Of a DNA stretch of 34,047 nucleotides, positions 9,650-32,096 are shown piece by piece. Under the pieces are notes generated by a model. That model made no database searches. It saw nothing but the letters and a program-made list of their open reading frames with translations, and was not told the origin of the DNA. Within the stretch, counting starts at the first letter, position 1, and each line of letters starts with the position of its first letter. The translations under genes were made by a program, and so were the position numbers. Origin of the DNA: a virus; the IMG/VR virus record IMGVR_UViG_3300038429_000072, positions 1-34,047 of that record, one strand, 5' to 3'.

Positions 9650-9702
9650 ACAGCCTCGGGCTGTCCTACTGGCATTATATATCAAAATCCCTAAATTATA
9701 AG
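9650..9702 (-). promoter_or_regulatory. Hairpin leader promoter 7 (lysis block)
   Basis: Minus strand: perfect TATAAT (+ coordinates 9674-9679), 7 nt, then GGACAGCC-CGA-GGCTGT followed by seven T (hairpin 9650-9664). A poor -35 (CTTATA, 9697-9702) sits at 17 nt. The transcript would start with the hairpin. One of seven equivalent modules in the window. By itself the hairpin looks like a strong intrinsic terminator. Confidence 0.6.
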
Positions 9703-9706
9703 GTTT

Positions 9707-10156
9707 TTAGTTGGCTAAGGTATATTCAATGAATATAAAGGGGACTGTTAAAGAAGCAACATAGGTGTGGGCAGTTGAATTAAAGACCGAGGCGGTCAAC
9801 GTAATCACGTTTCCGTTTATCTGCTGATACAAAGTCCCGGGCAAAGCCGCCCCACCGAATGGGATGTCGTAATAAGCTATATTGCCTGAATAAGTCCCGG
9901 ACGCCACTTCCATTTGATACCAATAGGGTTTAACAGTTCCAAATAATCCATCAAAAAGCTCGGTAAAATTAGCAAAAGCCATAGTAAACACTGGGTTGTC
10001 ACTCAAGGTTACATTAACTGTAGTTTGGGAAAAAGGTACACTTGGAGTAGCGGGAGGGACTGACGCAGGGAAAGTAATTGACCCAGGATAGGAATTGATG
10101 TTTTTGAAAGAGTTATAGCCGGTGTGTAAAATGAGTTTGGATAAATCAGGATTCAT
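9707..10156 (-). CDS. Virion or tail-associated protein, 149 aa
   Basis: A beta-rich, Thr/Val/Phe-rich protein (…SQTTVNVTLSDNPVFTMAFA…, …GNVITLTASVFNSTAHTYVA…) with the low charge typical of phage tail or decoration proteins. It is the last of four genes linked by ATGA overlaps at 10153, 10515 and 10892, which argues they make one structural unit. No signal peptide; residues 25-40 are Pro-rich. No specific family recognised. Confidence 0.65.
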   Translation of the reverse strand: MNPDLSKLILHTGYNSFKNINSYPGSITFPASVPPATPSVPFSQTTVNVTLSDNPVFTMAFANFTELFDGLFGTVKPYWYQMEVASGTYSGNIAYYDIPFGGAALPGTLYQQINGNVITLTASVFNSTAHTYVASLTVPFIFIEYTLAN

Positions 10157-10518
10157 AGGGCGTAATCCCTGTAAATCACATAGTAAATTAGATAAGTTCC
10201 AGTCAAAGTATTTTTCCAGTAGCCTAACTCAAGATAGATATTCGTGGCGTCCGCCCAACAGACCAAGTAAGGGCCAGAAACACCATTAACCAGAGTCTCA
10301 CCAACAATCCTGTTTCCCATTGGCGGGTAAATTACTCCATTTTGGAAAGGTTCATAATAAGTCCTGAACATTGGTACAAATCCTAAATTATGAGGAATTG
10401 GGGTTATAGTAACGTAATTTCCCAACAGAAGAGTAGCGGGTGCGGCCACAGCCTGCGAACCGCTGGAAGAATCCCGTTTCATATAGTTTTTCCCACTCCA
10501 AAAATTTATCTGGGTCAT
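10153..10518 (-). CDS. Virion or tail-associated protein, 121 aa
   Basis: The sequence (MTQINFWSGKNYMKRDSSSG...) opens with a short polar segment and continues as a beta-sandwich-like domain rich in Tyr and Pro (GNYVTITPIPHNLGFVPMFR, GPYLVCWADATNIYLELGYW). The HNLGFVPMF stretch is common in small phage minor tail proteins. It overlaps its neighbours on both sides as ATGA. Function is inferred from context only. Confidence 0.65.
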   Translation of the reverse strand: MTQINFWSGKNYMKRDSSSGSQAVAAPATLLLGNYVTITPIPHNLGFVPMFRTYYEPFQNGVIYPPMGNRIVGETLVNGVSGPYLVCWADATNIYLELGYWKNTLTGTYLIYYVIYRDYAL

Positions 10519-10895
10519 GAAATTGTATCCAAGGTATAGTTTATCGTTACATTCTGAGTTGCGGTGTAATTGGACAAAAAGATAAAAGAAATAGTCGTAT
10601 TACTACAAGCCATCGTCACGCCCATTTGCAATAGTTGCTGGGTCAATCCTGAATTGAAATAAGACAACTGGACAGATTGGTCATAAAAATTACTGCCATC
10701 CAGAGAATAAGAGAGCGTAGTATAGGCTTTTTTCCCATAAGGATTAGCTATCGTGAAAATTGTAGTCCTATCGTTGCCTCCTCCAGGAGTGGCTGGGCCA
10801 GGAACTGAATAAGTTACAGGAGAAGGATTTTGATAAACAATTTTATCTATCGGGTAATTAGAATAAAACTGTAATTTGGAGGCATCTACGGTCAT
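10515..10895 (-). CDS. Virion or tail-associated protein, 126 aa
   Basis: A beta-rich protein (…RTTIFTIANPYGKKAYTTLS…, …TTISFIFLSNYTATQNVTIN…) with a Gly/Pro-rich linker near residues 30-42 (VPGPATPGGGND). Its ending NYTLDTIS and overall composition match the neighbouring tail genes, to which it is joined by ATGA overlaps. No named family. Confidence 0.65.
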   Translation of the reverse strand: MTVDASKLQFYSNYPIDKIVYQNPSPVTYSVPGPATPGGGNDRTTIFTIANPYGKKAYTTLSYSLDGSNFYDQSVQLSYFNSGLTQQLLQMGVTMACSNTTISFIFLSNYTATQNVTINYTLDTIS

Positions 10896-11398
10896 GAGAA
10901 AGCGCTCGCCACACTATTCCCGGGTTTGGCAATGGCTAGACCATAGCTCCCATCCGGTAATAGCCCCATTTGGATATTATTGAGATCGTAAGTTTTGTCA
11001 TACCAATACTGTGTAGACCCTACGATTTTGTATAATAGATATCCGCTGGTGTCTAAAGCAAAGAATCCAAAATCTCCACTACCATCTGGGATTAAACCCA
11101 TTTCTACCTTTGAATTGTCATCATTGGTGACGGTTACGGCATTATTTGGGCCGTCTATTACTATTGCCCCCGAACCTACATTTATTGTTCCTGTAGTTCC
11201 GTCTATAGCTATATCTATCTCTCCGGTCACAGGATTAGTTACTGTGATTTTACCAGTTATATTTTGAGTTCCCCGTTGATTGCCAGTAGAAATCTGACGT
11301 GGCAAAACACGGGACAAATCACTACTACCGAGGTCAATCTCACTACTTTGGGCAGAATCAACGATAGTACCAGAGGAGGGCGTATAGGGAGTACTCAT
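10892..11398 (-). CDS. Tail fibre-like protein, 168 aa
   Basis: The first 45 residues are Ser/Thr/Gln-rich, then repeating short beta strands with Gly and Asn turns appear (GTTGTINVGSGAIVIDGPNN, NAVTVTNDDNSKVEMGLIPD). MGLIPDGSGDFGFFALDTSG is echoed later by MGLLPDGSYGLAIAKPGNS. This duplicated strand pattern fits a trimeric fibre or spike segment. It lies between the large tail hub gene and the small beta-rich genes, with ATGA overlaps to both. Confidence 0.65.
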   Translation of the reverse strand: MSTPYTPSSGTIVDSAQSSEIDLGSSDLSRVLPRQISTGNQRGTQNITGKITVTNPVTGEIDIAIDGTTGTINVGSGAIVIDGPNNAVTVTNDDNSKVEMGLIPDGSGDFGFFALDTSGYLLYKIVGSTQYWYDKTYDLNNIQMGLLPDGSYGLAIAKPGNSVASAFS

Positions 11399-13380: not shown

Positions 13381-13381
13381 T

Positions 13382-14322: not shown

Positions 14323-15297
14323 CTATGCCGCCTGATAAGTACCTGTTAATTGCAAGAAGTCACCGGTAGTCCAGGTATTAGGTATTGTAGCTGTAAGACT
14401 TGTGACGGAAATCAAATAAGTGCCGCTTGAATCTTGGGCAACAGGACGCATGACAGTTGTAGAAGTCCACAAACAAGCTGATGAATAGTTTATGCCAGCA
14501 GATAATAAATGCCCCTCACCTATAACGTCATTGGCTACATAATCAGATGTGGAGGTTACTGGTAGAGAGATGGTTGGAGACGTACCCACTGCAGAGGTGC
14601 TCCCCAAGACAAACCTAAACTGGAAGAACACTGTTTTACCAGTCTGTATATATTTTGCAGTAACAGTTCCATTACCCAGGGTTAAACTAGTTAATGTTGG
14701 TGTCCAGCTTTGCCACGCCCACGATGCACCGGTTCCCGCTACTAACTTGGCAGGGGTAACGGCGGCATCGGTAATACTTGCCGTGACTATTCCGTTAGTT
14801 CCTACTTTTGCACTAGAAATACTTAATCCATAGATTGTTCCACTGGTAGAAGCAGATTGTCCCACAATAGCGTCTGTTGTAATTGTGGTTCCTGTGATAG
14901 AACCATTATTTATAACAGGGGCGGTTAAGGTCTTATTGGTTAATGTCTGTGAAGTAGAAATATCCGCTAAGGTGCTGGAAGCATTTGGCAGAGTATAGGT
15001 TCTCGTGGTAGCTGTGGTAATTCCAGAAAGCTGGAATTGAGCTTGTTTAGTAGTATCTCCGTCGTCTTGCAGGGTGAACAAGGTATCTTTCAAGGTAACA
15101 GTATTGGTATTGTCTAAAACCTTGTTAGTCAGATTCTGAGAGGTGGAGGTGTCTACAGGTTGTCCGTTCACCCCCAAAAAGGTCTGGCGGTTGATTCTGA
15201 AAGTCCCCAGAGGCGAGGCTCGGTTTATGGGGAAATAATCAGCACTTCCGTCTATGCCGGAAGCTGCTGTTAATTGGTTAAAGTTTACATCGCTCAT
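14323..15297 (-). CDS. Tail fibre protein, 324 aa
   Basis: A typical trimeric fibre sequence. The N-terminal adhesion part (MSDVNFNQLTAASGIDGSAD) is followed by repeats around TSTSQNLTNKVLDNTNT and STSQTLTNKTLTAPVINNGS. The C-terminal domain of about 125 residues begins at WQSWTPTLTSLTLGNGTVTA and is paralogous to the C-terminus of the protein at 24446-25099. That domain is the likely receptor-binding tip. I choose the start at 15297, which overlaps the previous stop (ATGA), with GGGAGGAAG upstream; a TTG at 15318 is in frame but less likely. Confidence 0.75.
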   Translation of the reverse strand: MSDVNFNQLTAASGIDGSADYFPINRASPLGTFRINRQTFLGVNGQPVDTSTSQNLTNKVLDNTNTVTLKDTLFTLQDDGDTTKQAQFQLSGITTATTRTYTLPNASSTLADISTSQTLTNKTLTAPVINNGSITGTTITTDAIVGQSASTSGTIYGLSISSAKVGTNGIVTASITDAAVTPAKLVAGTGASWAWQSWTPTLTSLTLGNGTVTAKYIQTGKTVFFQFRFVLGSTSAVGTSPTISLPVTSTSDYVANDVIGEGHLLSAGINYSSACLWTSTTVMRPVAQDSSGTYLISVTSLTATIPNTWTTGDFLQLTGTYQAA

Positions 15298-15485
15298 TGA
15301 CTGTTGTCTTCCTCCCAAACTGTGGCTGGGATTTGAGTGAATGAACTGTCTAGGGTCACAAGATTGTATCCCGCTAAGGTTATTAATTGGTTGCCACTAA
15401 GCGTAACCAGATAAAGCAGGGCAATGTTATTCATCTCTCCGTTATTACCGCCAGGTTGCCAAACAGTTGCGGGTGCGTTTACCAT
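15294..15485 (-). CDS. Small virion-type protein, 63 aa
   Basis: MVNAPATVWQPGGNNGEMNN... has a PATVW motif near both ends (residues 5-9 and 53-57) and a hydrophobic beta-repeat stretch (LVTLSGNQLITLAGYNLVTL) in between. It is the first gene after a hairpin leader promoter and overlaps the fibre gene by 4 nt, so it is probably part of the tail fibre unit. No named family. Confidence 0.6.
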   Translation of the reverse strand: MVNAPATVWQPGGNNGEMNNIALLYLVTLSGNQLITLAGYNLVTLDSSFTQIPATVWEEDNSQ

Positions 15486-15503
15486 AGGATTCCTTAAATA
15501 AAA

Positions 15504-15562
15504 ATAGCCCCCGAGAGGACTATCCTATTTCAAAGTATGAGCTATTGCACTCTCAAAATCAA
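15504..15562 (-). promoter_or_regulatory. Hairpin leader promoter 6 (fibre, connector, tail)
   Basis: Minus strand: TACTTT (15532-15537), 6 nt, then GGATAGTCCTCTCGGGGGCTAT with one mismatch in the stem, then TTTTTATTT. The best -35 is TTGATT (15557-15562) at 19 nt. The hairpin (15504-15523) lies in the leader of the 63-aa gene, preceding AAGGAATCCT-ATG. It overlaps the divergent promoter of the chaperonin cassette. Confidence 0.5.
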
Positions 15563-15660: not shown

Positions 15661-16191
15661 ATGAAGACCTGTTCTATCGTTGAATGTCCTGAAGTACACC
15701 ATAGTAAAGGATACTGCAAAAAACACTATTTACGATGGTATCGGTGGGGCGACCCAAATATAGTCAAAAAAGAGTATCACGGATTAAACGATGCTCCAGA
15801 ACGCAATGTATGGCAAAAAATGAAACAGAGGTGCTACAACCCTAATGACAAATCGTATCCCGACTATGGCGGACGAGGGATAGAAGTATGTCCGAGATGG
15901 AGAGTTTCGTTTATGAATTTTTATAATGATATGGGCAAAAGACCTTCAGATACTCATTCCATAGAACGCATAAATAATGATGGTAACTATCGTCCTTCTA
16001 ACTGCAAATGGGCGACCAAAGACGAGCAAGTTAATAACTATAGACACAACCATTTTATTACTATTAACGGCAGAACTCAAAGTATGAAACGATGGGTTGA
16101 TGAACTGGGCTTAAAATATGGTCGTGTACAAATGCGACTATATCGTGGATGGACACCCGAGAGAGCTTTAGAGCTAGAAAGGAGTAAATAA
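15661..16191 (+). CDS. HNH endonuclease, 176 aa (paralogue 1)
   Basis: Begins MKTCSIVECPEVHHSKGYCK: a zinc motif formed by C4, C9, C19 and H22, then WYRWGDP. The core is MKQRCYNPND...YGGRGIEVCPRWRVSF followed by HSIERINNDGNYRPSNCKWA, a pattern seen in phage and bacterial HNH family proteins. The C-terminus carries a basic segment (GRTQSMKRWVDELGL...) likely for DNA recognition. A strong TGGAGG ribosome site lies upstream. About half of the residues in the central part match the second copy at 18106-18690 on the other side of groEL. It is probably a free-standing homing endonuclease. Confidence 0.8.
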   Translation: MKTCSIVECPEVHHSKGYCKKHYLRWYRWGDPNIVKKEYHGLNDAPERNVWQKMKQRCYNPNDKSYPDYGGRGIEVCPRWRVSFMNFYNDMGKRPSDTHSIERINNDGNYRPSNCKWATKDEQVNNYRHNHFITINGRTQSMKRWVDELGLKYGRVQMRLYRGWTPERALELERSK

Positions 16192-16586: not shown

Positions 16587-18182
16587 ATGAGTGAGAAAAA
16601 AGAAGGAAGAGAAGTATTAACCGAATCAGAACTACAAGTTAAAGTTCTTGAGGGTGCTCATGCGGCTTATCAGTCGGCAGCAATCTCTTATGGTCCAAAA
16701 GGTAAAAATGTAATCCTAGAAAAAGGTTTTGGCAGACCACTTTATACTCGTGACGGAATTACGATATTACGAGATACATTCTTTTCAGATAGAGGCAAAC
16801 AACTAGGTGCAGCTATGGTCAGAGAAGCTTCCGAAGCCTCAAATCAAGTAGCCGGAGACGGCTCTACAGCCGCCGGTATGCTAACTTATTTACTATACGA
16901 TAACGGTCTTAAATCTATAGCTGCCGGTAATCACCCTATGGACGTAGCCGATATAATCGTCAAAGATAGTTATTTATTACTAGAAGAACTTAAAAAGTTT
17001 GTCATTCCAGTCAAGGATAATCAGCTTAAAGACGTGGCTACAGTCGCCGCCGGTAATCCCCTGATCGGGCAACTGATCGCCGAGGCAGTTTTATATGTCG
17101 GTCAAGACGGCGGAATATTAACCGAAAAAGCCCCTATTGCCGAAGTAGAGCGGGAATATATAGACGGATATTATCTACAGTCCGGTTTTACCGCCCTACA
17201 GGGCGGCAAGAAGGAACTCGTAGACCCTTATGTGATTGTTTCTAGTAAAAGGTTAAGCTCCGCCGCTGATACGATTGAACTCTTAAACGGAGTGATGAAG
17301 TTCGGTGGACTGGAACAAGGGCAAATACCCCGTGTACTTTTCATAGGTAATTTTGAGGATGCCGCTTATACCACGATTGTAAACACCATAAACGCTGGGC
17401 AGATTGACGCTGTCATAATCAAAACTCCTCCGATGTACGGCGAACTTGGAAAGTATCTCTTAGAAGACATCGCTATCTACGCCGGTTGCCAACCTATTAC
17501 TGAGAATACTAAGATTAAATCATTCGTCTCTCAAACTACCGACCGCAAGTTCTTCTCTAGTTATATAGGCAGGATAGACAAAGTCATTGCTTCTAAGGGT
17601 GAATCTACCTTATTTGCTAATAAAGATGCGGAGGGTGTTAAAACCCGTATCCAAGAGATAAAAGACCAAATAAAAGACGAAAGTGTGGACGCTTTTGTTG
17701 AAAAGCTAAAGGATAGAGTAGCTAAACTAGAGGGTAAAATCGCTATCTTCAAAATCGGTGGGGCGACTGATACCGAAAAAGAACGCCTAGAATTTCAGAT
17801 AGAAGACGCTATTAACTCAACCCGACACGCCTATACAGACGGCATCGTACCTGGCGGTGGAGTTACACTTCTACAACTGAGTAAATTAGATATCTCAGAC
17901 ATTTACAAAACTTCCCTACAGACTATGTTTAAACAACTTCTAATCAACGCCAATCTGCCCTCTGAACTTAAATTAGATGAAGCCTTAAAAGCCCCCAAAG
18001 GACAAGGCTACAACTTACGCAAAGGTGGAGAACTGGTAGATGTCATCAAAGAGGGTATTATAGACCCCTATATAGTGCCTAAAGAGGTCATTTTCCACGC
18101 TACATCTATGGCTTCTGAGACTTTGAAACTTGGTCTAGGGCTCGTCTTCTCTGATGATGATAAAAAGTCAGCGCTTGCTTAG
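16587..18182 (+). CDS. groEL: Chaperonin GroEL, 531 aa
   Basis: A full-length group I chaperonin. Visible landmarks are SYGPKGKNVILEK, D56 in TRDGITIL, D91 in AGDGSTAAGML (nucleotide site), D407 in QIEDAINSTRHAYTDGIVPG (catalytic Asp), the GGG at 423-425, and D493 in GIIDPYIVP. The usual C-terminal Gly-Gly-Met tail is absent; it ends SDDDKKSALA. It would form ring complexes that fold proteins with ATP and the GroES-like partner. The start has TTAGGAG upstream. Phage-encoded GroEL with GroES is uncommon, and this pair is transcribed opposite to the surrounding virion genes. Its 3' end overlaps the opposing HNH gene by 77 nt. Confidence 0.95.
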   Translation: MSEKKEGREVLTESELQVKVLEGAHAAYQSAAISYGPKGKNVILEKGFGRPLYTRDGITILRDTFFSDRGKQLGAAMVREASEASNQVAGDGSTAAGMLTYLLYDNGLKSIAAGNHPMDVADIIVKDSYLLLEELKKFVIPVKDNQLKDVATVAAGNPLIGQLIAEAVLYVGQDGGILTEKAPIAEVEREYIDGYYLQSGFTALQGGKKELVDPYVIVSSKRLSSAADTIELLNGVMKFGGLEQGQIPRVLFIGNFEDAAYTTIVNTINAGQIDAVIIKTPPMYGELGKYLLEDIAIYAGCQPITENTKIKSFVSQTTDRKFFSSYIGRIDKVIASKGESTLFANKDAEGVKTRIQEIKDQIKDESVDAFVEKLKDRVAKLEGKIAIFKIGGATDTEKERLEFQIEDAINSTRHAYTDGIVPGGGVTLLQLSKLDISDIYKTSLQTMFKQLLINANLPSELKLDEALKAPKGQGYNLRKGGELVDVIKEGIIDPYIVPKEVIFHATSMASETLKLGLGLVFSDDDKKSALA

Positions 18183-18690
18183 TCGTAAATCCGTTCTGGA
18201 TTCTCCAACTCAGAGTATCCGCATCTATACCAGTCAGCTCCGACCATTCTCTTAGATTTAGAGCTTTGCCATTGAAAATCAATAATCGGTTAGTCGATTT
18301 ATTATTAGCCTGTTCCTTATAGGTAGCCCAACGACAATTTTGCGGAGAATAATTTCCATCATTATCTATACGCTCAATAGAATGCTTTGGAGTGGGTCTG
18401 GCCCCCATATCTTCATAAAATGTTGCAAACGAACTCCGCCATCTATCACATATTTCTATTCCCCTCCCCCCATATCTATAATATTTATGGTGATTTTTAT
18501 CATAACATCGTTGTTTCATTCCAGCCCATACAGTATATTCTGGTACTCTTCTCTTACTACTTCCCATCCCGTGCATTTCGTGACGAGTTACTAAGGGGTC
18601 ACCATTGCGTCTCCAGTGTTGCCAGTGTAGCTTGCACCATCCTCTAGCAGCGGCAGGTCTATTACAATCTACTATTGCACAGATATTCAT
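18106..18690 (-). CDS. HNH endonuclease, 194 aa (paralogue 2)
   Basis: Begins MNICAIVDCNRPAAARGWCK with the same zinc pattern as paralogue 1, then HWRRNGDP, a core MKQRCYDKNHHKYYRYGGRG, and HSIERIDNDGNYSPQNCRWA. The last 25 residues are encoded antisense to the 3' end of groEL. It is transcribed leftward, facing the chaperonin cassette. A perfect TATAAT lies 6 nt before the ATG, so the mRNA is probably leaderless. A homing or cassette-linked endonuclease is the most likely role. Confidence 0.8.
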   Translation of the reverse strand: MNICAIVDCNRPAAARGWCKLHWQHWRRNGDPLVTRHEMHGMGSSKRRVPEYTVWAGMKQRCYDKNHHKYYRYGGRGIEICDRWRSSFATFYEDMGARPTPKHSIERIDNDGNYSPQNCRWATYKEQANNKSTNRLLIFNGKALNLREWSELTGIDADTLSWRIQNGFTTKQALTFYHHQRRRALDQVSKSQKP

Positions 18691-18725: not shown

Positions 18726-18935
18726 GCCTGGATAATCTCGCTCATAGGGGTGTTTTTGTTAGGTTACCACTACGGGAATATCTCTAAAAAGGTCAAACAG
18801 CTAGAAGTTGAAGTCAAAAAGAAGATAGAAAAACCGCAAGAAGAACCCGAAAGTATGTTAATTGACGAACTAGACCCCGTACAGACAGCCCAGTACGAGC
18901 TAGAACAACAAAATAAAAGGCTAAATGGTGAGTAA
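18714..18935 (+). CDS. Single-pass membrane protein, 73 aa
   Basis: One N-terminal membrane helix (MIYLAWIISLIGVFLLGYHY) is followed by a basic coiled-coil helix (NISKKVKQLEVEVKKKIEKP) and an acidic tail (PESMLIDELDPVQTAQYELE). Small anchored coiled-coil proteins of this kind occur in many phages near the virion genes, with unknown role. Its stop overlaps the start of the next gene by 11 nt. It is expressed from the near-leaderless promoter just upstream. Confidence 0.65.
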   Translation: MIYLAWIISLIGVFLLGYHYGNISKKVKQLEVEVKKKIEKPQEEPESMLIDELDPVQTAQYELEQQNKRLNGE

Positions 18936-19320: not shown

Positions 19321-19343
19321 TGTTATCTCCTTAAAATAAAAAT

Positions 19344-19398
19344 AAGTCCCGCTAGGACTTTCCTAGCTTAATTGTAACACTTACTGTTGGGGTTGCAA
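19344..19398 (-). promoter_or_regulatory. Hairpin leader promoter 5 (60-aa basic protein)
   Basis: Minus strand: TTGCAA (19393-19398), 16 nt, TACAAT (19371-19376), 7 nt, then GGAAAGTCC-TAGCG-GGACTT followed by ATTTTTATTTT. The hairpin occupies 19344-19360. The promoter lies at the end of the large virion gene and before AAGGAGATAACA-ATG. Confidence 0.6.
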
Positions 19399-21378
19399 CA
19401 TCTTTCTTAAAAAGGTGTCATTACTAGGAGTTTTAGCGGGAACATAAGTAAAACCGTGTTGCTCTAAAACTGCATTTTTTATCTGAGTTTTGGCATTAGA
19501 TATAAGGTTCTGCTGGGCTGTTGGAGACATTTGTTTATAGTAACTAGATTTAAGGGTACTGTCTAACCATTGACCGTATTTGGTGTTGTAGTCTTGGTTT
19601 GCTTGGGTAAACTCTTTAGTCCCTACTTGTTGCTTGAATTGAGTTAATTCTTTGCTGGTAGAAGTAGACCAATTTGTAGCAGAGCCGTAGGTATTAGACA
19701 GAACGCCTAGTTGTTGGGCTATCATCGTGGCAACAGTATTAGCCGATTTAGGGTCGTTTTTAAGCTGGGAGTAGGATTGAATAGGGATAGGTGTAGTTAA
19801 GGCTCCAACTTCGCTTCCTACTGTCGGCTTGCCCCCTGCAAAAGTTTTTTGATTGGCTAAATCAGATACTACTTGTCCGGCTGGTGAGGCTCGTCCTTGC
19901 AAGAAGTCACCCATTAGTTCTGCAAAAGAAGTCTGTCCGAATCCGCTACCAACTTTAGAAAAAGCACCCGTGCTTGAACTTTTAATAGCATTTTTGCCCG
20001 AGAGTGCCGAAGCGACTCTTGCTCCTAGAGTCACGATACTGTCGTAACCACCACCGATATTAAAGCGGGTGTCACCAATTTTAATCTTCCCAAAATTAGA
20101 ACTTCTAGGGTCAAACTCTGCTATTCCAGGCGAAATAGCATTGGCGGTAGTTATCAACGCTCCCACCCCGAGTATCATTTTAGCCAAGGTCTTAGCAGAT
20201 TGAACTTTAACGGCGGTTGTCGCCGCAGGGTCAAAAAGATGTGCCGTTAGGTTATTAGCTTGGGCTTTTAGTAGACGTTGCGAGAATAAGAAGTTATTTG
20301 CCAGGGCATCAGGATTAGTTGTTTTACCGCCAGTTTGGTCTATGGCTAACTTACCCCATGCTTTAGCTGTTTCGGGGTCTAGTGGGTCAAGCCCCATTCC
20401 TTTGACGATATTCACATAGTGGTCTACTAAATCCATACGCATTTTAAGGTTAAAGCCGTCAAACATGGTTTTACTGCCTTTATATAATCTTCCCAAAACT
20501 GGAATCTTCCCAGGCGCTAATGAGTGATATTCTTCGTTAGCTTTAGACAGTTCCCCTGGAATCCACTTATCATAAATACCGTTTATAGAGTTTTCCCTTG
20601 AATAACCTTCGGCTCGGATAGCACTCATTACATCTTTACCGCCGACTTCCTTAGCGGCATAGGAGAACTGGGTAACATAATTGCTTAACCAATTTTTAGG
20701 ATCTTCAAATAAAGCTGGAAAGCCATGCTTTAGGGGAGCGTGAGAAGCTAGTGAAGCCACTAATCCTTTAGTCGCTGCTAAAATATGGGTTACATTCTTT
20801 ATCGGATTAGTAGTAAGGGTCTGACCGATGGTCTTATGATTGGCTAGGGCTTTTTTCTGTGCCATGTATTTTTCTAGGGTTACTCGGGCAGCTCCAGCTT
20901 TTAGCCGTGCGTCCTCGGTTTCTTTAGTAAAGCCCTTTTCGGCAATCAAACTATCGGCGGTGGCTTTGGCTTCGGTAGCTTGAGCCGACATATCAGATAT
21001 GGCTTTGGCTTCTTCTTGGCTTACGCCTACGCCCAGTTTAGTTTCAGCTAAGTCTTTCAAAAACTGTTGTTCTTCTTGAGGGTTAAGAACTCTGTCCATT
21101 CTACTAATTCTAGTAAGTAAATCTCTGCGAACAGCCGGAGTAAGTCCAGCTACTTTTTTAGCCCAAGTCGTGTAACCCATCTGTTGATTCTTAAGTAAAA
21201 GTTTAGATTCAAATAAGGAGTTCACAGCTTTAGCATCACCCTCACCTACGAACTTAGCTAAAGCAGCTCGGCGTTCATCTGAAGACAGCTTAGATAACTG
21301 ATCGGGATTAATATCGCCATTTTTAACAGCGTCTAGGAAGGCTTGAGCTTGTTGGGGCATTAAGCAGAAGTTAGCCAT
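19381..21378 (-). CDS. Large internal virion/ejection-type protein, 665 aa
   Basis: A long helical protein. The first 30 residues are acidic and polar (MPQQAQAFLDAVKNGDINPD), then coiled-coil-like stretches, a central amphipathic region (…KTMFDGFNLKMRMDLVDHYV…), a hydrophobic stretch (KTLAKMILGVGALITTANAI) and a Gly-rich end region. Podovirus-type phages carry such proteins inside the capsid and eject them with DNA. The start at 21378 overlaps the previous stop (TGATG); upstream TTG at 21387 is in frame but has no better ribosome site. No enzymatic motif seen. Confidence 0.65.
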   Translation of the reverse strand: MANFCLMPQQAQAFLDAVKNGDINPDQLSKLSSDERRAALAKFVGEGDAKAVNSLFESKLLLKNQQMGYTTWAKKVAGLTPAVRRDLLTRISRMDRVLNPQEEQQFLKDLAETKLGVGVSQEEAKAISDMSAQATEAKATADSLIAEKGFTKETEDARLKAGAARVTLEKYMAQKKALANHKTIGQTLTTNPIKNVTHILAATKGLVASLASHAPLKHGFPALFEDPKNWLSNYVTQFSYAAKEVGGKDVMSAIRAEGYSRENSINGIYDKWIPGELSKANEEYHSLAPGKIPVLGRLYKGSKTMFDGFNLKMRMDLVDHYVNIVKGMGLDPLDPETAKAWGKLAIDQTGGKTTNPDALANNFLFSQRLLKAQANNLTAHLFDPAATTAVKVQSAKTLAKMILGVGALITTANAISPGIAEFDPRSSNFGKIKIGDTRFNIGGGYDSIVTLGARVASALSGKNAIKSSSTGAFSKVGSGFGQTSFAELMGDFLQGRASPAGQVVSDLANQKTFAGGKPTVGSEVGALTTPIPIQSYSQLKNDPKSANTVATMIAQQLGVLSNTYGSATNWSTSTSKELTQFKQQVGTKEFTQANQDYNTKYGQWLDSTLKSSYYKQMSPTAQQNLISNAKTQIKNAVLEQHGFTYVPAKTPSNDTFLRKMLQPQQ

Positions 21379-24058: not shown

Positions 24059-24307
24059 TTACACGTCCTTATTCAGGAATGAAACAGTAATGTCACAACT
24101 ACCGTTAGGATTGACCGTTATTGCTCCCTGATTCCTCAAACCATTATAACGATACTGGCTACCAACGGTAGGGTTGGTAATGATAGCGAAAGTTGTACCT
24201 CCGGCGGCTAAGGTAATTGTTCCAGTTAATGCTGCATTGACTTGGATAAGTAGGCCATTAGCTGCCGCTGCAACAGTCTGAGACCCACTAGAAGTTATAT
24301 ACTTCAT
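24059..24307 (-). CDS. Small beta-rich virion protein, 82 aa
   Basis: The sequence (MKYITSSGSQTVAAAANGLL...) continues as short beta strands (NAALTGTITLAAGGTTFAII, GAITVNPNGSCDITVSFLN) typical of small phage structural or decoration subunits. It has AAGGAG before its ATG and heads the transcription unit driven by hairpin leader promoter 4. The next gene begins directly after its stop (TAAATG). Confidence 0.65.
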   Translation of the reverse strand: MKYITSSGSQTVAAAANGLLIQVNAALTGTITLAAGGTTFAIITNPTVGSQYRYNGLRNQGAITVNPNGSCDITVSFLNKDV

Positions 24308-24445
24308 TTATTTCTCCTTGTTAAAATAAAAATAGCCCTCAACGGGCTATCCTGATTGAATTGTAACTTAACTTGGTTCATTATACAACTTAATTAGGTT
24401 GCTGCATCGCCTCTGCGAATTGACTCATTGTGACTGGAAAATGTT
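24308..24445 (-). other. Intergenic leader between fibre and internal virion units
   Basis: The gap holds the hairpin leader promoter 4 and otherwise no gene. About 45 nt adjoining the fibre gene (24397-24445) show no feature that I can support. Confidence 0.6.
24332..24388 (-). promoter_or_regulatory. Hairpin leader promoter 4 (internal virion genes)
   Basis: Minus strand: TTGTAT (24383-24388), 17 nt, TACAAT (24360-24365), 7 nt, then GGATAGCCC-GTTGA-GGGCTAT and TTTTATTTT (hairpin 24332-24350, 7-bp perfect stem). The ATG at 24307 follows after AAGGAGAAATAA. Confidence 0.7.
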
Positions 24446-25099
24446 TTAAGCCGCTTCGTACACTCCATAACCACTAAAATCATTGCCAGTAGTCCATGTG
24501 CCTGGGACTGAAGCAGTAAAGCTTACAATCCCTCCGAGATATGTACCAGCCGCACCAATCGCTAAAGGACGGAAATGGGTCGTGTCTATTATTTCAAAAA
24601 GCCCTACACAACCGTTACCTCCAGAGTTTATAATTATGTGTCCCACGGGAAAGTCTTGATTGAGGGTTCCATAATAGGTATTAGCGGTTACGGGTAAAGT
24701 AATAGTTGGTGCGGTACCCACCGAAGAACCAGAACCTAACAAAAAACTATATCTAAAGATGACAGTTTTACCGATTTGAATATATTGAGCAATTTGAGTA
24801 CCGCCCGCCCCGATTGTGAGATTAGCTAAAGTCGGACTCCAACTCTGCCACGCCGAAGCCCATAATTTAGGCGCGAACCCATGCGCTGAAGTAGAAACAT
24901 CATCAGTCGTGTTGTCCGCTAGAGTAATTCTGGCTTCGGTTATAGCTCCATAAACACCCGAATCAAGCATCGCTCCCGTCCCAGCATTAGTCGCTTTAGG
25001 CTGGAACCCATGCTTGGAAGTAGAAACATTGTTAGTGGTAATATCTGAAGTCTGAAGGTTTCTGTCAGAGGCAGCGGAAGATGATTGTACCCTAGGCAT
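24446..25099 (-). CDS. Fibre or receptor-binding-type protein, 217 aa
   Basis: The N-terminal half has two copies of a TSxHGFxPK motif (STSKHGFQPKATN and STSAHGFAPKLW), a fibre-like trimer repeat, with ITTNNVSTS and DNTTDDVSTS before each. The C-terminal half (WQSWSPTLANLTIGAGGTQI onward) is paralogous to the tip domain of the fibre at 14323-15297, with the same PTI.LPVT and TWTTG motifs. This suggests two fibres with a related receptor-binding head. It overlaps the upstream gene by 1 nt. Confidence 0.7.
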   Translation of the reverse strand: MPRVQSSSAASDRNLQTSDITTNNVSTSKHGFQPKATNAGTGAMLDSGVYGAITEARITLADNTTDDVSTSAHGFAPKLWASAWQSWSPTLANLTIGAGGTQIAQYIQIGKTVIFRYSFLLGSGSSVGTAPTITLPVTANTYYGTLNQDFPVGHIIINSGGNGCVGLFEIIDTTHFRPLAIGAAGTYLGGIVSFTASVPGTWTTGNDFSGYGVYEAA

Positions 25100-26184
25100 T
25101 AGTTTACCCCCACATAAGTTACACCTTCACCATTGACTGAACTGTCTATATTGACCGTAGTTAGGTTGGCTATATCCATTGAAACACTTTCACCAGCTAG
25201 AAGTTGTAGACCATTTGTAGAGGCAACAGACGAGTTGCCAACATAAATAATCCCCGTATTAGTTGAGAGGGCTTTTATTGTCACTGATTGGATGGCTTGA
25301 GAGGAGGTTAATACAACCCTTGTCCCTGCGGTTGTGACAGCAGTTTTACCGCTATATATCGTTGTAGGAGCCGCAGGAGTGTTTTGAACGGCAAAAGTGC
25401 CCGTTCCTACTACGGTAGCATTTAGATTAGCGGCGGCAGATTGAGTGGCGATGAAAGACGTATTGCTTATCGAGCCGGAGATATTAGCCGTGACCGTTCC
25501 TGTAACTGTGGCTAAAATAGGGGTCATTGAAGTTATACCTTGGACAGTTAATACTCCAGTTGCTGCACTACCGGCAATTCCGCCGCCAGCCACTATCCAA
25601 GGTGAAGTGCTTTGTGTGACTGCGATAGAGGTTGGATTACCGGAAGATATGTTGACATTGACTTTAGATGAACTAACCGTTCCGGCTAAGGTTGCTAAAT
25701 TGCCCCCTGACTCTAAGGCTAATGCAGAAGTATTTAAGTTGGTTCCAGCATTGGCGGTAAATGCTGTATTAGTAATTGAACCGATGGCATTACTCCCCAC
25801 TGGTAGGGAGGTAGCTATCGAAACCTGAGGTCTGAAGGAACTATCTATCAGTCCGTAAGCTGGAACGGGCGTGGCATCTCCAGGGTCTTGAGAGAAGGTA
25901 GGCGCTGAATTAACTGTCCCGGAAAATGTTGCATTAACATCTAATTTCCCCCCAGTAGAGGTTATTGAGTTGCCTGAACCGTCTGCCAGACCAACTTTTA
26001 TTATCCCAGTGGCGGCTGTTGATACCGAGTTTCCGGCAATTTGGGCGATATTAACATTAGGATTACCAGATATAGTAGCGATTACGTCTAGGGCGTGATT
26101 AGTGCTATAGACAAACTCGTTCTCACCATTAATGCTAGAAACGGCTGAAAAAGATGGTTGGTGGTTAATAGATACATTTTTCAT
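25099..26184 (-). CDS. Beta-rich fibre or baseplate-type protein, 361 aa
   Basis: Multiple short repeats (KVGLADGSGNSITSTGGKLD, NSAPTFSQDPGDATPVPAYG, KVNVNISSGNPTSIAVTQST, ISGSISNTSFIATQSAAANL) are typical of phage fibre or baseplate proteins. The last 100 residues form a different domain (SGKTAVTTAGTRVVLTSSQA... VDSSVNGEG-like end) that resembles a head-binding or trimerisation module. It is the first gene of its unit after hairpin leader promoter 3. The ATG follows the hairpin directly, without a strong AAGGAG. Function in adsorption is inferred. Confidence 0.65.
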   Translation of the reverse strand: MKNVSINHQPSFSAVSSINGENEFVYSTNHALDVIATISGNPNVNIAQIAGNSVSTAATGIIKVGLADGSGNSITSTGGKLDVNATFSGTVNSAPTFSQDPGDATPVPAYGLIDSSFRPQVSIATSLPVGSNAIGSITNTAFTANAGTNLNTSALALESGGNLATLAGTVSSSKVNVNISSGNPTSIAVTQSTSPWIVAGGGIAGSAATGVLTVQGITSMTPILATVTGTVTANISGSISNTSFIATQSAAANLNATVVGTGTFAVQNTPAAPTTIYSGKTAVTTAGTRVVLTSSQAIQSVTIKALSTNTGIIYVGNSSVASTNGLQLLAGESVSMDIANLTTVNIDSSVNGEGVTYVGVN

Positions 26185-26190
26185 AATAAA

Positions 26191-26226
26191 ATAGCCCCTA
26201 AAAGGGCTATCCTCAAGCTCATTTTA
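26191..26226 (-). promoter_or_regulatory. Hairpin leader promoter 3 (fibre unit)
   Basis: Minus strand: extended -10 TGATAAAAT (hexamer 26221-26226), 8 nt, then GGATAGCCC-TTTTAG-GGGCTAT and TTTTATT (hairpin 26191-26210). No good -35; the TGn extension compensates. The ATG follows at 26184. The -10 lies 1 nt beyond the stop of the coiled-coil gene. Confidence 0.6.
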
Positions 26227-27012
26227 TCATAAATTGAGCAGATTATAGTTACGGGCAATGGATTTTTCTTTCTCGTTCACTTGGGCTTCTCTTATCCGCA
26301 GGTTTTCGTCTTTATCTTCTAGTTTTTTACTCCAATTAGCTAAGTTTTCCATAACTTTGTTATTCTGGTCTTGATTACTCATAATATCTTGCAATAACTT
26401 TTGTTTTTTGCCCTCTAGTGTCTTCAAGTCGGTCTGCCAAGACTCTTCTAATTGCTTGATGTCCTCTTTTAGATTGATTAAGTTAGTTTTCTGCAATTTT
26501 AGGGTCTCGTTATCCTCGGAAATCTCTCCTTTAATAGAGGTTTGCGTCTCTCGCAAGCCGACAATATCCTTTAGCGTAGTCTCTTTATCCGAAGTTATAT
26601 CACTAAGTTCTTCTTTGTTGATTTTTACCAAACTCTTAAGTTCGATATTTTCATGTGAAAGGTCAGAATTGGTCTGGAATAGAACTTTTTTGGCACGTTC
26701 CAGTTCTTCGATATCTACCGATAATTTAGACAGGTTATTCTCTTGCTCTTGATGCTGCTTCAGATAATCAGCATTACCATCCTCAATCTTTTTGTGCAAA
26801 TCAGCTAGCTTTTTTTTAGATTCCTTAGTGGAATCGGCTATAGCTTCTTTAGAAGTTTCAATAGTTACCTGAGTATCAGCCTCAATCTGTTTTTTTCGGT
26901 CTACCCACGCTTCTTCGGCTACTCTTACCGCCTGGTTTAACATTGATAGGTTCCGCTTCCTGGCCGCTATTTGGGTTTCTATCTTCTTTGAGTCCTGGGA
27001 AAGCTGTTTCAT
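26227..27012 (-). CDS. Long coiled-coil protein, 261 aa
   Basis: Nearly the whole protein is a coiled coil (KKIETQIAARKRNLSMLNQA, KKLADLHKKIEDGNADYLKQ, LKLQKTNLINLKEDIKQLEE). It is acidic with Lys/Glu/Leu heptads. It could be a scaffold, spike support or internal protein. The ATG at 27012 has GAGGTAAAAG 4 nt upstream and is preferred, although it lies inside the upstream gene by 131 nt. No enzymatic motif. Confidence 0.65.
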   Translation of the reverse strand: MKQLSQDSKKIETQIAARKRNLSMLNQAVRVAEEAWVDRKKQIEADTQVTIETSKEAIADSTKESKKKLADLHKKIEDGNADYLKQHQEQENNLSKLSVDIEELERAKKVLFQTNSDLSHENIELKSLVKINKEELSDITSDKETTLKDIVGLRETQTSIKGEISEDNETLKLQKTNLINLKEDIKQLEESWQTDLKTLEGKKQKLLQDIMSNQDQNNKVMENLANWSKKLEDKDENLRIREAQVNEKEKSIARNYNLLNL

Positions 27013-27532: not shown

Positions 27533-27534
27533 CG

Positions 27535-27794: not shown

Positions 27795-27893
27795 GGATAA
27801 TTGCTTGCTTGTTAAAGTTGCGAGATGGAGTTTTGGGAGTTAATTGTTAGAACAATGTACTTTACGGGTTTACATTACCCTTGTATCCGTAAC
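27795..27893. other. Short intergenic stretch
   Basis: Between the hairpin and the repeat gene I see no gene or clear promoter. The sequence is of mixed composition. Confidence 0.5.
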
Positions 27894-28238
27894 CTATTTC
27901 TTGGCGGTCTTTTTAACCACTTTGGGTTTGGCAACAGGTTTTTCTGCGACTGGTTCAAGAGGTTCAACTTTCTTGGCGGTCTTTTTAACCACTTTGGGTT
28001 TGGCAACAGGTTTTTCTGCGACTGGTTCAAGAGGTTCAACTTTCTTGGCGGTCTTTTTAACCACTTTGGGTTTGGCAACAGGTTTTTCTGCGACTGGTTC
28101 AAGAGGTTCAACTAAAACCTCATAGTCAGGATGAGCCTTTAATCGAGCTTCGGCTGCTTCAAGTTCACCTTGAGCTTTAACAACTCCGAGTTTAGCGTCC
28201 TCTACGTCTGCGTGAAATGCGTTAATGTGTGTTCCCAT
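27894..28238 (-). CDS. Lys/Ala-repeat basic protein, 114 aa
   Basis: The first 42 residues are an acidic helical segment (MGTHINAFHADVEDAKLGVV…). Residues about 43-114 then consist of three copies of a 24-residue repeat, VEPLEPVAEKPVAKPKVVKK followed by TAKK, giving a Pro/Lys/Ala-rich tail like those of H1-type histones or HU-like proteins. It could bind DNA or the capsid interior. It has AAAGGAG upstream and belongs to the decoration-protein unit. The three DNA repeats are identical, so the array is recent. Confidence 0.7.
   Translation of the reverse strand: MGTHINAFHADVEDAKLGVVKAQGELEAAEARLKAHPDYEVLVEPLEPVAEKPVAKPKVVKKTAKKVEPLEPVAEKPVAKPKVVKKTAKKVEPLEPVAEKPVAKPKVVKKTAKK
27898..28113 (-). 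repeat. Three identical 72-bp tandem repeats
   Basis: Copies at 27898-27969, 27970-28041 and 28042-28113 are identical base for base, each encoding one 24-residue unit of the Lys/Ala protein. The identity implies recent expansion and a length likely to vary between strains. Confidence 0.95.
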
Positions 28239-28259
28239 ATTATTCTCCTTTAGTTAGGA

Positions 28260-29270: not shown

Positions 29271-29331
29271 TGTTTCTCCTTTGTATCTCTCCCTCTCGGA
29301 TCAAGTCCGGTAAAAGGCGAGGAAACTTTAT

Positions 29332-30072
29332 TTAGTAATCTAGTGTTAGAACGGTTGGGCTGTACTTAGTGCTGACACCTGCTTCAGGCATGTAACCTAC
29401 TCGGCGAGTAACAGTTGAAGTACCTTCTGTATCTACTGCACCATCGGTTGTGCTGGAGGCTATAACCCCTGCATTTTTACTGATAGTACCATTCTGTAGG
29501 ATTGAAGCCATACCACCAGTTTGAGTCCAGTAGAAGTAAGTAGCGGTTACGGCTATGATTGGTGCGCCTGATACTGGAACTGCTGGGGCTGCGGTGTGGT
29601 CGGCTATGATTTGTGCGCTGAACTGGCTTGGATAAGCACCTACAACACTTGTAGTATCTAGGGCTACATTCAGAGCGTCCCTGATATTGATGACTGTTGT
29701 GTTGCTGTTGCCTGAAGTTGCAGCGGTGTTCCCAGTGATGTAGTAAGAGCCTTGACCCTTACCAGTTCCATCAGTGACTACGAAGTTCCAGCCCTTAAAT
29801 TGGTCTTGAGTGGCTGTAGTGCCTAGAGTAACTGTGATCTGGTTTGCGCCAGCGGCAGCAGCTACTGAAAGAGTGCGAGTTACATAGTTAGCAGTGACAT
29901 TTGGTGGGGATGTAATCTTGCCTGCGGCTAGGTTGCTTGCACCAGCGTGAGTGTAGCTAAAGATACGACCATCTGGGGTTGAGGCAACTTGACCCTTTAG
30001 TTCTGCGCTTTGGGTGCTAACTGTTGTGTAAGCGTCCTGGTCGGTGATTTGTACGAGTGCTGATAGTGACAT
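29332..30072 (-). CDS. Head decoration-type protein, 246 aa
   Basis: The sequence (MSLSALVQITDQDAYTTVST...) is followed by beta-rich blocks (NYVTRTLSVAAAAGANQITV, TLGTTATQDQFKGWNFVVTD, KGQGSYYITGNTA) and ends RRVGYMPEAGVSTKYSPTVL. The layout resembles capsid-associated decoration-like proteins of podovirus-type phages. It is the first gene of its unit, driven by hairpin leader promoter 2, with AAAGGAG before the ATG. Placement next to the capsid gene supports a head role. Confidence 0.7.
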   Translation of the reverse strand: MSLSALVQITDQDAYTTVSTQSAELKGQVASTPDGRIFSYTHAGASNLAAGKITSPPNVTANYVTRTLSVAAAAGANQITVTLGTTATQDQFKGWNFVVTDGTGKGQGSYYITGNTAATSGNSNTTVINIRDALNVALDTTSVVGAYPSQFSAQIIADHTAAPAVPVSGAPIIAVTATYFYWTQTGGMASILQNGTISKNAGVIASSTTDGAVDTEGTSTVTRRVGYMPEAGVSTKYSPTVLTLDY

Positions 30073-30094
30073 AAAATCTCCTTTAAATAAAATA

Positions 30095-30150
30095 AGCCCC
30101 TTGCAGGGCTGTCCTAAAGACAGTATCTTATAGTTCTAAAGATTAGTCAA
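30095..30150 (-). promoter_or_regulatory. Hairpin leader promoter 2 (decoration unit)
   Basis: Minus strand: TTGACT (30145-30150), 17 nt, GATACT (30122-30127), 7 nt, then GGACAGCCC-TGCAAG-GGGCT and TATTTTATTT (hairpin 30095-30110). AAAGGAG and the ATG at 30072 follow. Confidence 0.65.
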
Positions 30151-30166
30151 CTAACTTAGCGTAATC

Positions 30167-30403
30167 TTAAACTTTAACACCTTTTAAATTCTCAATAATC
30201 TTTCGGCGGTGTTCTTCGGATAATTTTCGCCCTTTCATGATTTCTGACTGTCGTTTGATTCGCCACCCATATTTATCTAGGTAGTTTTTGATAGTCGTAC
30301 TAGAACACCCAAATATCCCTGCTACCTGAACTGCACTTCTATGCTCTACATAGTATAGTCGGCGTAACTTTTGAGGGGTTATTTTAACTCGCTGTTTGGG
30401 CAT
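30167..30403 (-). CDS. HTH-NUMOD3 protein, probable homing-endonuclease remnant, 78 aa
   Basis: Residues 10-45 form a helix-turn-helix (KLRRLYYVEHRSAVQVAGIF, CSSTTIKNYLDKYGW). It is followed by GRKLSEEHRRKIIENLKG, a NUMOD3-type DNA-binding motif typical of homing endonucleases. No HNH or GIY-YIG catalytic part follows, so it seems to be a truncated copy or a separate DNA-binding gene. Its 5' end overlaps the HNH gene by 20 nt. Domain order matches the N-terminal half of that neighbour. Confidence 0.65.
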   Translation of the reverse strand: MPKQRVKITPQKLRRLYYVEHRSAVQVAGIFGCSSTTIKNYLDKYGWRIKRQSEIMKGRKLSEEHRRKIIENLKGVKV

Positions 30404-30884
30404 TGCGTCTTAACCAATCTTTGCGCTTATGTTCATTAACAACAACCTCCAAGTTCTCCAATCTATTGTCAGTACGAATACCGTTAATATGGTGTACCTC
30501 GTGCCAAGTCTTAAGTTTATATTTTAAGTGTTGCTCCATGACATATCTATGTTCTTTGATTACTCTTCCGTCTATGCGTCTGATAACATATCCGTAGCTG
30601 TCTATGTATCGGCCACCTTTCCAAGAAGGATGCTTGTCTCCAAACTTACCTTTATGTAATTTTAATACATTTGCTGTTATTTTAGCCTTATGCTCTTTAG
30701 TCATCTTACGAAGTTTTAAAGCTTCTGATTTATTGCGAATAGCTATATTAAATCTTTTCATTGCCTGTCTGACAGACTCATCATCACACTCTAATTCTTT
30801 GGCTATGCGAAGTGTAGACCATTTATTTTTATCATACATTCGGCGGATATTGGATTCCGTTAAGCCTTTAATGCGTTTACTCAT
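30384..30884 (-). CDS. HNH homing endonuclease, 166 aa
   Basis: An N-terminal HTH (ESNIRRMYDKNKWSTLRIAK, residues 10-30) is followed by a NUMOD3-like stretch (RKMTKEHKAKITANVLKL) and an HNH_3-type domain: EHRYVMEQHL (111-120), then HEVHHINGIRTDNRLENLEV (128-147) with H131-H132, N140 and N144, and H152. I choose the ATG at 30884 (MSKRIKGL); an in-frame TTG at 30920 lies inside the terminator. It sits between the capsid gene and the decoration unit, as expected of a homing endonuclease that targets conserved phage genes. Confidence 0.8.
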   Translation of the reverse strand: MSKRIKGLTESNIRRMYDKNKWSTLRIAKELECDDESVRQAMKRFNIAIRNKSEALKLRKMTKEHKAKITANVLKLHKGKFGDKHPSWKGGRYIDSYGYVIRRIDGRVIKEHRYVMEQHLKYKLKTWHEVHHINGIRTDNRLENLEVVVNEHKRKDWLRRNAQTAS

Positions 30885-30888
30885 ACTT

Positions 30889-30914
30889 AAAAGGATACAC
30901 CTTTCGATGTATCC
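30889..30914 (-). terminator. Capsid-gene terminator
   Basis: Minus strand GGATACA-(TCGAAAGG)-TGTATCC then TTTT. The 7-bp perfect stem begins about 24 nt after the capsid gene stop, matching an intrinsic terminator that would end the capsid transcript before the HNH gene. Confidence 0.7.
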
Positions 30915-30938
30915 CGTCAAGTACCTAGATTCCGACTT

Positions 30939-32012
30939 CTAGCTAGTCGTTATACCTGTTATTTTGAAATTACGGTTGGGATTTTCACAGTAAAATTGAC
31001 CGTACATAACAAATATTCCCACTTCTGCGAGCTGGTTGACTGGCATGATTGGCTCACGGAACTGGAAGGCGCTAACTTTGTAAGAACTGTAAGCACCAGC
31101 GGTTACATCTTCCTGTGTTGCGACTAAGTCTAGCCCCATCATTTTCAAAGATTTGAAGTAGAACCAGTTTTCGTTAAGACCGAACATCTGACCGGAAGTA
31201 CATTTTTGGTCTCTTACTAGGGGTTTGCCACGGTAAGATACACTTGTTGCACCCTGTTTCAGCCACAAAGAGTCAGCTTGGCTAACACTCTGTTTAACAG
31301 CTGTAGAACCGTCTACAAATGAACCACCGTCACCCTCGTAGTGGGCAAAAACGGTTGGAGTTAGCAAAGATTCGTAAATGCTCCAAACTGTCTGAGTCGC
31401 CATGATGACATTTGGTGTTTCGCTTTCGTTACCGGAGATGGTTGCGCCGTCATCGGCGGAGGCCATCACATCTAGGTCAAGTACACCGCCAGAAGCGGCT
31501 ACGACATAACCATTGATTGTCGGGTAAGTGGCTCGGGTTAGTCCAGCATAGGTTGAGGTTGAAGTACCATCGTCTACGATCAGACCAAGACCGTCAAAGT
31601 CATTACCAGAACCGAAACCATAGAAGATTTGGCCAAGTGCCGTAATCATGGAGTTCTGAGCGTACTGGTATGAAGACTTGTATAGGTCAACCACACCGGA
31701 AGGAGTGGCGTTGATAGAGCGTTCAACAACCGATACACCGACAGGCTGAGCGTAACCAGTCGGGAACCAGGTCATCTGAGCTGTATTGTAGTCAATAGAG
31801 GTATCAAAAATTTCACTACCTTTGAATGACTGACCGAGTTGTGAGTTATTAGTAAAAACTGGTGAACTGTAGCTGCGACCATTCCATCGTTCAGGACGAG
31901 AAACTACTCGCTTCATAATTTCGCTAGATTTGCTGACAGTGTCAACTACGCTTGCGTTATAGTCCTGCAAAGTGATGTTGTTGACCCTGTCATTTTGTGC
32001 CGTTGCTGACAT
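30939..32012 (-). CDS. Major capsid protein (HK97-fold type), 357 aa
   Basis: The N-arm (NDRVNNITLQDYNASVVDTV) leads to an arrangement seen in HK97-fold capsid proteins: MKRVVSRPERWNGRSYSSPV, SIDYNTAQMTWFPTGYAQPV, a spine-helix region (VVDLYKSSYQYAQNSMITAL), and a long P-domain to FREPIMPVNQLAEVGIFVMY. It follows a scaffold-like gene and the portal, in the standard order. Its own promoter, hairpin leader, strong AAAGGAG and downstream terminator indicate very high expression. No sequence comparison was run, so the exact family is open. Confidence 0.8.
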   Translation of the reverse strand: MSATAQNDRVNNITLQDYNASVVDTVSKSSEIMKRVVSRPERWNGRSYSSPVFTNNSQLGQSFKGSEIFDTSIDYNTAQMTWFPTGYAQPVGVSVVERSINATPSGVVDLYKSSYQYAQNSMITALGQIFYGFGSGNDFDGLGLIVDDGTSTSTYAGLTRATYPTINGYVVAASGGVLDLDVMASADDGATISGNESETPNVIMATQTVWSIYESLLTPTVFAHYEGDGGSFVDGSTAVKQSVSQADSLWLKQGATSVSYRGKPLVRDQKCTSGQMFGLNENWFYFKSLKMMGLDLVATQEDVTAGAYSSYKVSAFQFREPIMPVNQLAEVGIFVMYGQFYCENPNRNFKITGITTS

Positions 32013-32038
32013 ATTAAGTCTCCTTTAGTAAATAAAAA

Positions 32039-32096
32039 ATAGCCCCGAAGGGCTATCCATAGTTAAATAGTAACACTAACTATTTTAACAATGCAA
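32039..32096 (-). promoter_or_regulatory. Hairpin leader promoter 1 (capsid)
   Basis: Minus strand: TTGCAT (32091-32096), 18 nt, TACTAT (32067-32072), 8 nt, then GGATAGCCC-TTCG-GGGCTAT and TTTTTTATT. The hairpin (32039-32056) has a 7-bp stem closed by a CUUCGG-type stable tetraloop. AAAGGAGACTTAAT-ATG follows. The best-defined of the seven leader modules. Confidence 0.75.

Follow-up and report, generated by a model that had tools for sequence, protein, structure and literature searches.

The put RNA of phage HK022 is a promoter-proximal RNA on two early phage transcripts that is made of two stem-loops, is not known to have a U-tract and is linked to antitermination. In phages lambda and 21, Q antitermination acts at a late promoter of host type (PR') that is followed by an intrinsic terminator, and late expression depends on bypassing this terminator (PMC6606751). 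Pseudomonas aeruginosa AlpA has several target promoters; at each of them an intrinsic terminator precedes the first gene, and its bypass controls lysis genes (PMC7969949). Stem-loops at the 5' end of an mRNA also act as stabilizers, as in the ompA, papA and aprE type treated in the literature cited in PMC3997798. In genes 38 and 25 of phage T4, a hairpin located between the Shine-Dalgarno sequence (SD) and the AUG shortens the spacing between the two (PMC3014915). Here, we describe a leader module, in which a promoter is followed at once by a terminator-like hairpin and a U-tract, at the head of seven late operons of IMG/VR record IMGVR_UViG_3300038429_000072, recorded as a linear virus. The window analyzed is the whole record and comprises 34,047 nucleotides (nt). 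Our search of the open-access literature revealed no description of late promoters each bearing a promoter-proximal terminator or 5' hairpin as such a module.

A sequence-only reading of the window had proposed that seven sites on the minus strand follow one plan, and our analysis confirmed these shared promoter-hairpin leaders: a -10 box, a hairpin and a U-rich tract were found at all seven (Table 1). The GG of the hairpin motif lies 7-8 nt from the -10 box and belongs to the motif GGA(T/C/A)AG(C/T)CC, which is followed by a short loop, a 3' arm containing GGGCT or GGACT and the U-rich run; at five of the seven sites, SD and ATG are found no more than about 60 nt from the -10 box. The set is uneven, as the -35 boxes have 2-5 of 6 matches, the stems at 19344 and 30095 are imperfect or shorter, and the first good open reading frame (ORF) at site 9650 begins 86 nt past the stem. 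A scan for promoter, hairpin and U-tract returned six minus-strand matches, which fall at five of the seven sites, and no plus-strand match, and the identical scan of both strands of Markov-simulated genomes returned 0-2 matches each. A wider scoring of the module recovered all seven sites, and hairpins at several of them were also reported by a plain consensus scanner. Furthermore, a covariance model matched all seven sites at E-values of 0.0014-0.055 (725 kb searched), values that are somewhat flattering since the model was trained on all leaders, these seven included. Nearly all of its other matches fell on relatives' late strands. No Rfam family matched the window at gathering score.

Table 1. 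Leaders, hairpins and the major capsid protein gene in the window (E, covariance-model match for leaders and hairpins)
Feature	Coordinates	Strand	Description	E
Late leader 1	32029..32096	-	-35 TTGCAT (32096); -10 TACTAT (32072-32067); before major capsid protein gene 30939-32012	
Leader 1 hairpin	32058-32037	-	GGATAGCCC-UUCG-GGGCUAUUU, then U-tract	0.0035 (match 32072-32031)
Late leader 2	30083..30150	-	-35 TTGACT; -10 GATACT (30127-30122); before gene 29332-30072	0.0075
Leader 2 hairpin	about 30115-30090	-	AGGACAGCCC, then U-tract	
Late leader 3	26180..26249	-	extended -10 TGaTAAAAT (26226-26221)	0.0014
Leader 3 hairpin	26213-26188	-	AGGATAGCCCT-UUUA-GGGGCUAUUUU	
Late leader 4	24318..24388	-	-10 TACAAT (24365-24360); before 24059-24307	0.0019
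Leader 4 hairpin	24353-24329	-	AGGATAGCCC-GUUGA-GGGCUAUUUU	
Late leader 5	19329..19399	-	-35 TTGCAA; TGtTACAAT (19376-19371); before 19138-19320	0.0059
Leader 5 hairpin, imperfect	19364-19340	-	AGGAAAGUCC-UAGC-GGGACUUAUUU	
Late leader 6	15490..15562	-	-35 TTGATT; -10 CATACT (15539-15534); before 15294-15485	0.055
Leader 6 hairpin	15526-15501	-	AGGAUAGUCCU-CUCG-GGGGCUAUUUU	
Late leader 7	9640..9702	-	-10 TATAAT (9679-9674); upstream of 9197-9562 and lysis-type block	0.005
Leader 7 hairpin	9667-9647	-	AGGACAGCC-CGA-GGCUGUUUU, then U-tract	
Major capsid protein gene, behind leader 1	30939..32012	-	phrog_9953, E=1.7e-42; 80 relatives	

Relatives of the major capsid protein (MCP) were taken from IMG/VR, a wider MCP search extended the set to ~36% identity, and the relatives' genes were called with our own simple ORF caller. 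Upstream of nearly all fetched MCP relatives we observed the layout seen in the window, often with a better promoter (TTGACA-17-TANNNT-7 nt-GGA-hairpin-U-tract). An automatic layout test on 63 distinct MCP upstream regions, picked without any hairpin criterion, recognized the module at the site equivalent to leader 1 in 55 of them, down to ~36% MCP identity, compared to 0-1 of 63 shuffled regions and none of 189 control segments from upstream. The late strand of 12 near-complete relatives carries the module at matching operon heads (portal, MCP, fibre/tail, c11 and lysis blocks), and about 3-7 late operons per relative carry it. The distant subfamily (MCP identity down to ~36%) has leaders that begin with AGGCA and again contain hairpin and U-tract; most of the genomes examined have several such leaders. 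Far from missing upstream of the homologous genes of relatives, the motif stands at their late operon heads, and this distribution indicates that the module is a family-wide late-gene leader that is not peculiar to this genome. Scanning viral contigs for the complete hairpin of the window as an exact pattern gave zero matches because the hairpin sequences of relatives vary, and the module is not present upstream of the MCP gene of TM7 phage DolZOral124. Single hairpins with U-runs are common (22 versus 14 expected in the first half of the window), as they should be if the layout were a composition effect of A+T-rich intergenic DNA, but the near absence of the layout from shuffled MCP heads and the late-strand position of nearly all covariance-model matches leave this explanation with a negligible likelihood.

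In the 75 curated leaders, an extended -10 box (TGn) occurs in 25 and a -35 box with at least four of six matches in 38, one or the other being present in 56; a GG lies 7-10 nt past the -10 box in 60 of 71 leaders. The late-leader promoters are of the ordinary sigma-70 type. As had been proposed, the gap between -10 box and hairpin fits transcription starting at the hairpin or no more than a few nt from it: with the transcription start site (TSS) predicted 7 nt past the -10 box, a median of 2 unpaired 5' nt precede the stem, and 62 of the 75 leaders have at most four. Furthermore, among strong intergenic promoters a late-type hairpin follows none of the 37 early-strand ones and 12 of the 49 late-strand ones (Fisher p=0.0009), and several hairpin-free strong promoters of the late strand drive early-region genes. 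Hence, the module marks late operons.

Other motifs were seen at promoters of different classes. The divergent GroES/GroEL promoters at G010 4230, G011 9354 and G012 22109 (L049, L052, L056) lack the late-type hairpin but are followed by a common inverted repeat of the CCGCAGC...GCTGCGG type, whose loop is long, possibly a separate control element of the chaperonin operon. The start sites of several strong early-region promoters of G003, G006 and G012 have AGAGAYATAACA in common, which may be a leader motif of the early class.

Alignment of 66 unique leaders showed that the inner seven pairs are mostly preserved through C-G, G-C, A-U and U-A, that the outermost columns are without covariation and that the eight columns 3' of the stem are 60-90% T. 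This anchored alignment maximizes pairing and so overstates covariation, and U-tract conservation in the curated set was partly ascertained by the scan, while the MCP set is free of that bias. An independent MAFFT alignment gave 33 double-change cells versus 22.5 in shuffled alignments, and its covariation score also exceeded all shuffles (0/500); in the pair count a slide by +1 column scores as high as the given structure because the leader sequences form two registers. Folding energies were also far lower than those of shuffles (-12.8 vs -7.4 and -17.5 vs -8.4 kcal/mol). A second, outer helix between 5' AGGCAA and the sequence following the U-tract seemed persuasive on inspection of the distant subfamily but is not claimed, since matched and mismatched pairs showed no difference (-3.45 and -3.27 kcal/mol, respectively; 186/1000).

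The loops are 3-13 nt long, vary in length even within genomes and recurrently are GNRA or UUCG, and G-U pairs are present in the stems. The variable loop and the recurrence of GNRA and UUCG argue that the element most likely acts as RNA and not as a DNA operator. A dimeric regulator binding an operator across the start site could account for an inverted repeat in constant position with arms alike within a genome. However, arms placed at such varying distances give no constant half-site spacing, and the G-U pairs, the loop types and the preservation of pairing despite sequence change all speak for RNA, which makes an operator very improbable.

The sequence-only reading had also likened the hairpins to terminators standing after, not before, their promoters, and this likeness was borne out by scores at least equal to those of hairpins between convergent genes (tail, 4.76 vs 3.86; stem, 18.2 vs 17.2). 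A G+C-rich stem directly followed by a U-tract, as in intrinsic terminators, was found in all leaders except three of the G007/G008 subclade. The U-tract adjoins the stem at start-codon distances as different as 4 and 86 nt, and this also holds for the two structural types that the distant subfamily shows. Behind divergent genes, such as the gene upstream of leader 6 (15661-16191, plus strand), the U-tract is as strong as elsewhere (8.2 vs 8.2 T of 12); since no same-strand gene adjoins these leaders upstream, the hairpin is not merely a stop for upstream transcripts. The placement of the U-tract and the leaders behind divergent genes thus favor termination or pausing as a conserved function. 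Late operons often lie back to back with only a few tens of nt from stop codon to next -10 box, and the hairpin might be the terminator of the upstream operon that by chance lies past the next promoter, with polymerase starting nearby escaping it. We regard this as improbable, as leaders behind divergent genes retain hairpin and U-tract equally and the position at +1 to +5 would be left unexplained.

As the best, if tentative, reading, we take the module for a promoter-proximal attenuator on every late operon that would require antitermination, and hold this to be slightly short of an even prospect. From a host sigma-70-type promoter, the RNA would begin with (A)GG placed around +1 to +4, and its initial 25-35 nt would fold into an intrinsic-terminator-type hairpin with its U-tract, ahead of SD and ATG. 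Host RNA polymerase would be active at all late promoters from the onset and terminate at about +30-35. A putative infection-dependent factor, recognizing AGG and the 5' arm or the polymerase loaded there, would then allow read-through and switch on several late operons jointly. The read-through mRNA would keep the hairpin as a 5'-terminal stem-loop, in some operons also as part of the ribosome site.

Several observations weigh against such an attenuator. The hairpin is unusually near the start site. Three leaders of one subclade (G007 c11, G008 c32 and G008 c11) lack the U-tract while keeping promoter, GCGGA and hairpin, and termination therefore cannot be the only role. The 5' arms are mixed in G002, G011, G012 and L004, so that any reader must tolerate variation. 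Furthermore, known antiterminators, sigma factors and RNA polymerases lack homologues among the scanned proteins, and no known antiterminator was present among the 25 most frequent PHROG families listed for 80 early-region proteins of three relatives.

The hairpins retained without a U-tract and the few unpaired nt at the predicted 5' ends are what would be expected of a 5'-terminal stem-loop acting as a cap that protects late mRNAs from 5'-end-dependent decay and gives the ribosome site its form, the U-tract being no more than an unstructured A/U-rich spacer. In about 15 of the 75 leaders, the start codon lies 4-10 nt past the stem with no SD between, and the GGA located 5' of the hairpin is the only SD candidate; several of these starts are fixed by conserved N-termini such as M..ISPN.RE. 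At leader 3 of the window, the ATG of 25099-26184 directly follows the U-tract, and the sole SD candidate is the AGGA 5' of the hairpin. Where no separate SD is found, the GGA would serve as SD, and the hairpin would place it 5-10 nt from the start codon, as in the bridged SDs used by T4 genes 38 and 25 (PMC3014915). Conversely, most other leaders have their own SD after the hairpin, the U-tract remains beside the hairpin even when SD and ATG are 30-80 nt off, and GGA is not clearly enriched in the SD-less leaders. Pairing of the two 5' G is barely above shuffles (0.65 vs 0.53; 0.80 vs 0.73), and the stem core of the distant subfamily often begins about 10 nt in. We consider a cap and ribosome-site role a close rival of the attenuator, if somewhat less probable, and a combination of attenuator and cap or ribosome-site roles is possible. 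The portal leader of G008 (L044-L046) contains an HNH endonuclease gene, whose start codon falls in the 3' arm of a hairpin that has been remade.

The nine bases from GG, which form the 5' arm, are 84% identical among operons of one genome and 66% identical for the same operon across genomes (0/2000 permutations). No such effect was observed for the 17-nt promoter spacer (identity of 0.304 within genomes and 0.301-0.317 between them). As the operon positions are common to the genomes and the arms are alike within each genome, the arms have changed in concert. The simplest cause suggested by this pattern is a trans-acting reader, and short gene conversion may be an alternative cause. One may go further and suppose that all late mRNAs carry a genome-specific 5' hairpin read in trans by a predicted phage factor, either an RNA-directed antiterminator or the reader of a late-mRNA recognition tag. 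The late promoters would then form one regulon through RNA leaders, and not through a sigma factor, an activator or a phage polymerase, with 5' arms co-evolving within genomes. We consider this extended proposal rather unlikely as it stands.

Profile searches of the window's proteins gave few matches to known families, namely a major head protein (phrog_9953), a portal fragment, an exonuclease and GroEL. The MCP of TM7 phage DolZOral124_53_65 is 40% identical to that of the window, and the clusters common to both comprise portal, scaffold-like, MCP, tail-type and GroEL proteins. Another MCP relative (35%) is carried by G015, the genome of L061, a metagenome-assembled genome (MAG) of ~0.9 Mb, a size typical of Patescibacteria. 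From these MCP relatives, a Saccharibacteria/Patescibacteria host is likely for this soil phage family, the tiny Saccharibacteria being the probable hosts. No Rho match above cut-off was found in the G015 MAG, which may be incomplete, and intrinsic termination may therefore be its only kind. In genomes of the host phylum, the module matched in 4 of 145 at E<=0.01, with about 1.5 expected, leaving a host origin of the module unsupported.

Homing-type HNH/NUMOD genes lie between or beside leader-headed operons of the window at 15661-16191 (+), 18106-18690 (-) and 30167-30920 (-). The gene at 3717-4466 (+) encodes a protein in which Cys-rich repeats (YSCDSCNSC) occur in tandem and the C-terminal domain matches phrog_14105. 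A small late-region protein (27894-28238, -) contains VEPLEPVAEKPVAKPKVVKKTAKK three times and resembles a histone H1 tail. The small GroEL-operon protein of cluster c18 (18925-19146, +) is found in most relatives and starts with a two-CxxC zinc ribbon in some members and not in others. The large terminase of one relative (L013:2564-4966, +) appears to hold an intein-like insertion.

As an interpretation, the sequence-only reading held in part: a single module, the start-site gap and the terminator-like hairpin after the promoter all stood, its own refuting condition of absence in relatives did not apply, and the meanings it had offered (antitermination, pausing or 5' stabilization) are all candidate functions on sequence evidence. 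To our knowledge, gene timing in phages of Patescibacteria and Saccharibacteria is uncharted. A leader found across a family with MCP identity down to about 36% offers a concrete, testable late control point, and its interest lies in a whole late regulon defined by a common 5' RNA element. If a trans-acting reader exists, it could represent a new family of antiterminators or RNA-binding proteins.

As in the Q and AlpA systems, a predicted terminator is located between late promoter and first gene. Unlike the Q system, each genome has several such promoters, each with a terminator-like hairpin at the very 5' end, and the spacer between -35 and -10, where Q uses a DNA element, holds no common element. 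The AlpA site also lies in this spacer, whereas here it is the hairpins that share sequence within a genome, and they start at about +1. No Q or AlpA homologue was found among the scanned proteins. Without a common spacer element, the module would not be a member of the Q/AlpA type even if it works alike. HK022 put, as far as its general description goes, is also a promoter-proximal RNA, but it has two stem-loops and no U-tract and is found on early transcripts. The stem located 0-4 nt from the predicted 5' end recalls the ompA, papA and aprE stabilizers; the known cases concern single genes and are not known to need a U-tract, whereas here a whole late regulon carries the stem-loop together with a U-tract. 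The layout of the T4 bridged SD may be matched in the SD-less leaders described above; in contrast to T4, the hairpin stands at the predicted 5' end of the mRNA, and in most leaders it is followed by a normal SD. The leader module appears to be a new variation on known kinds.

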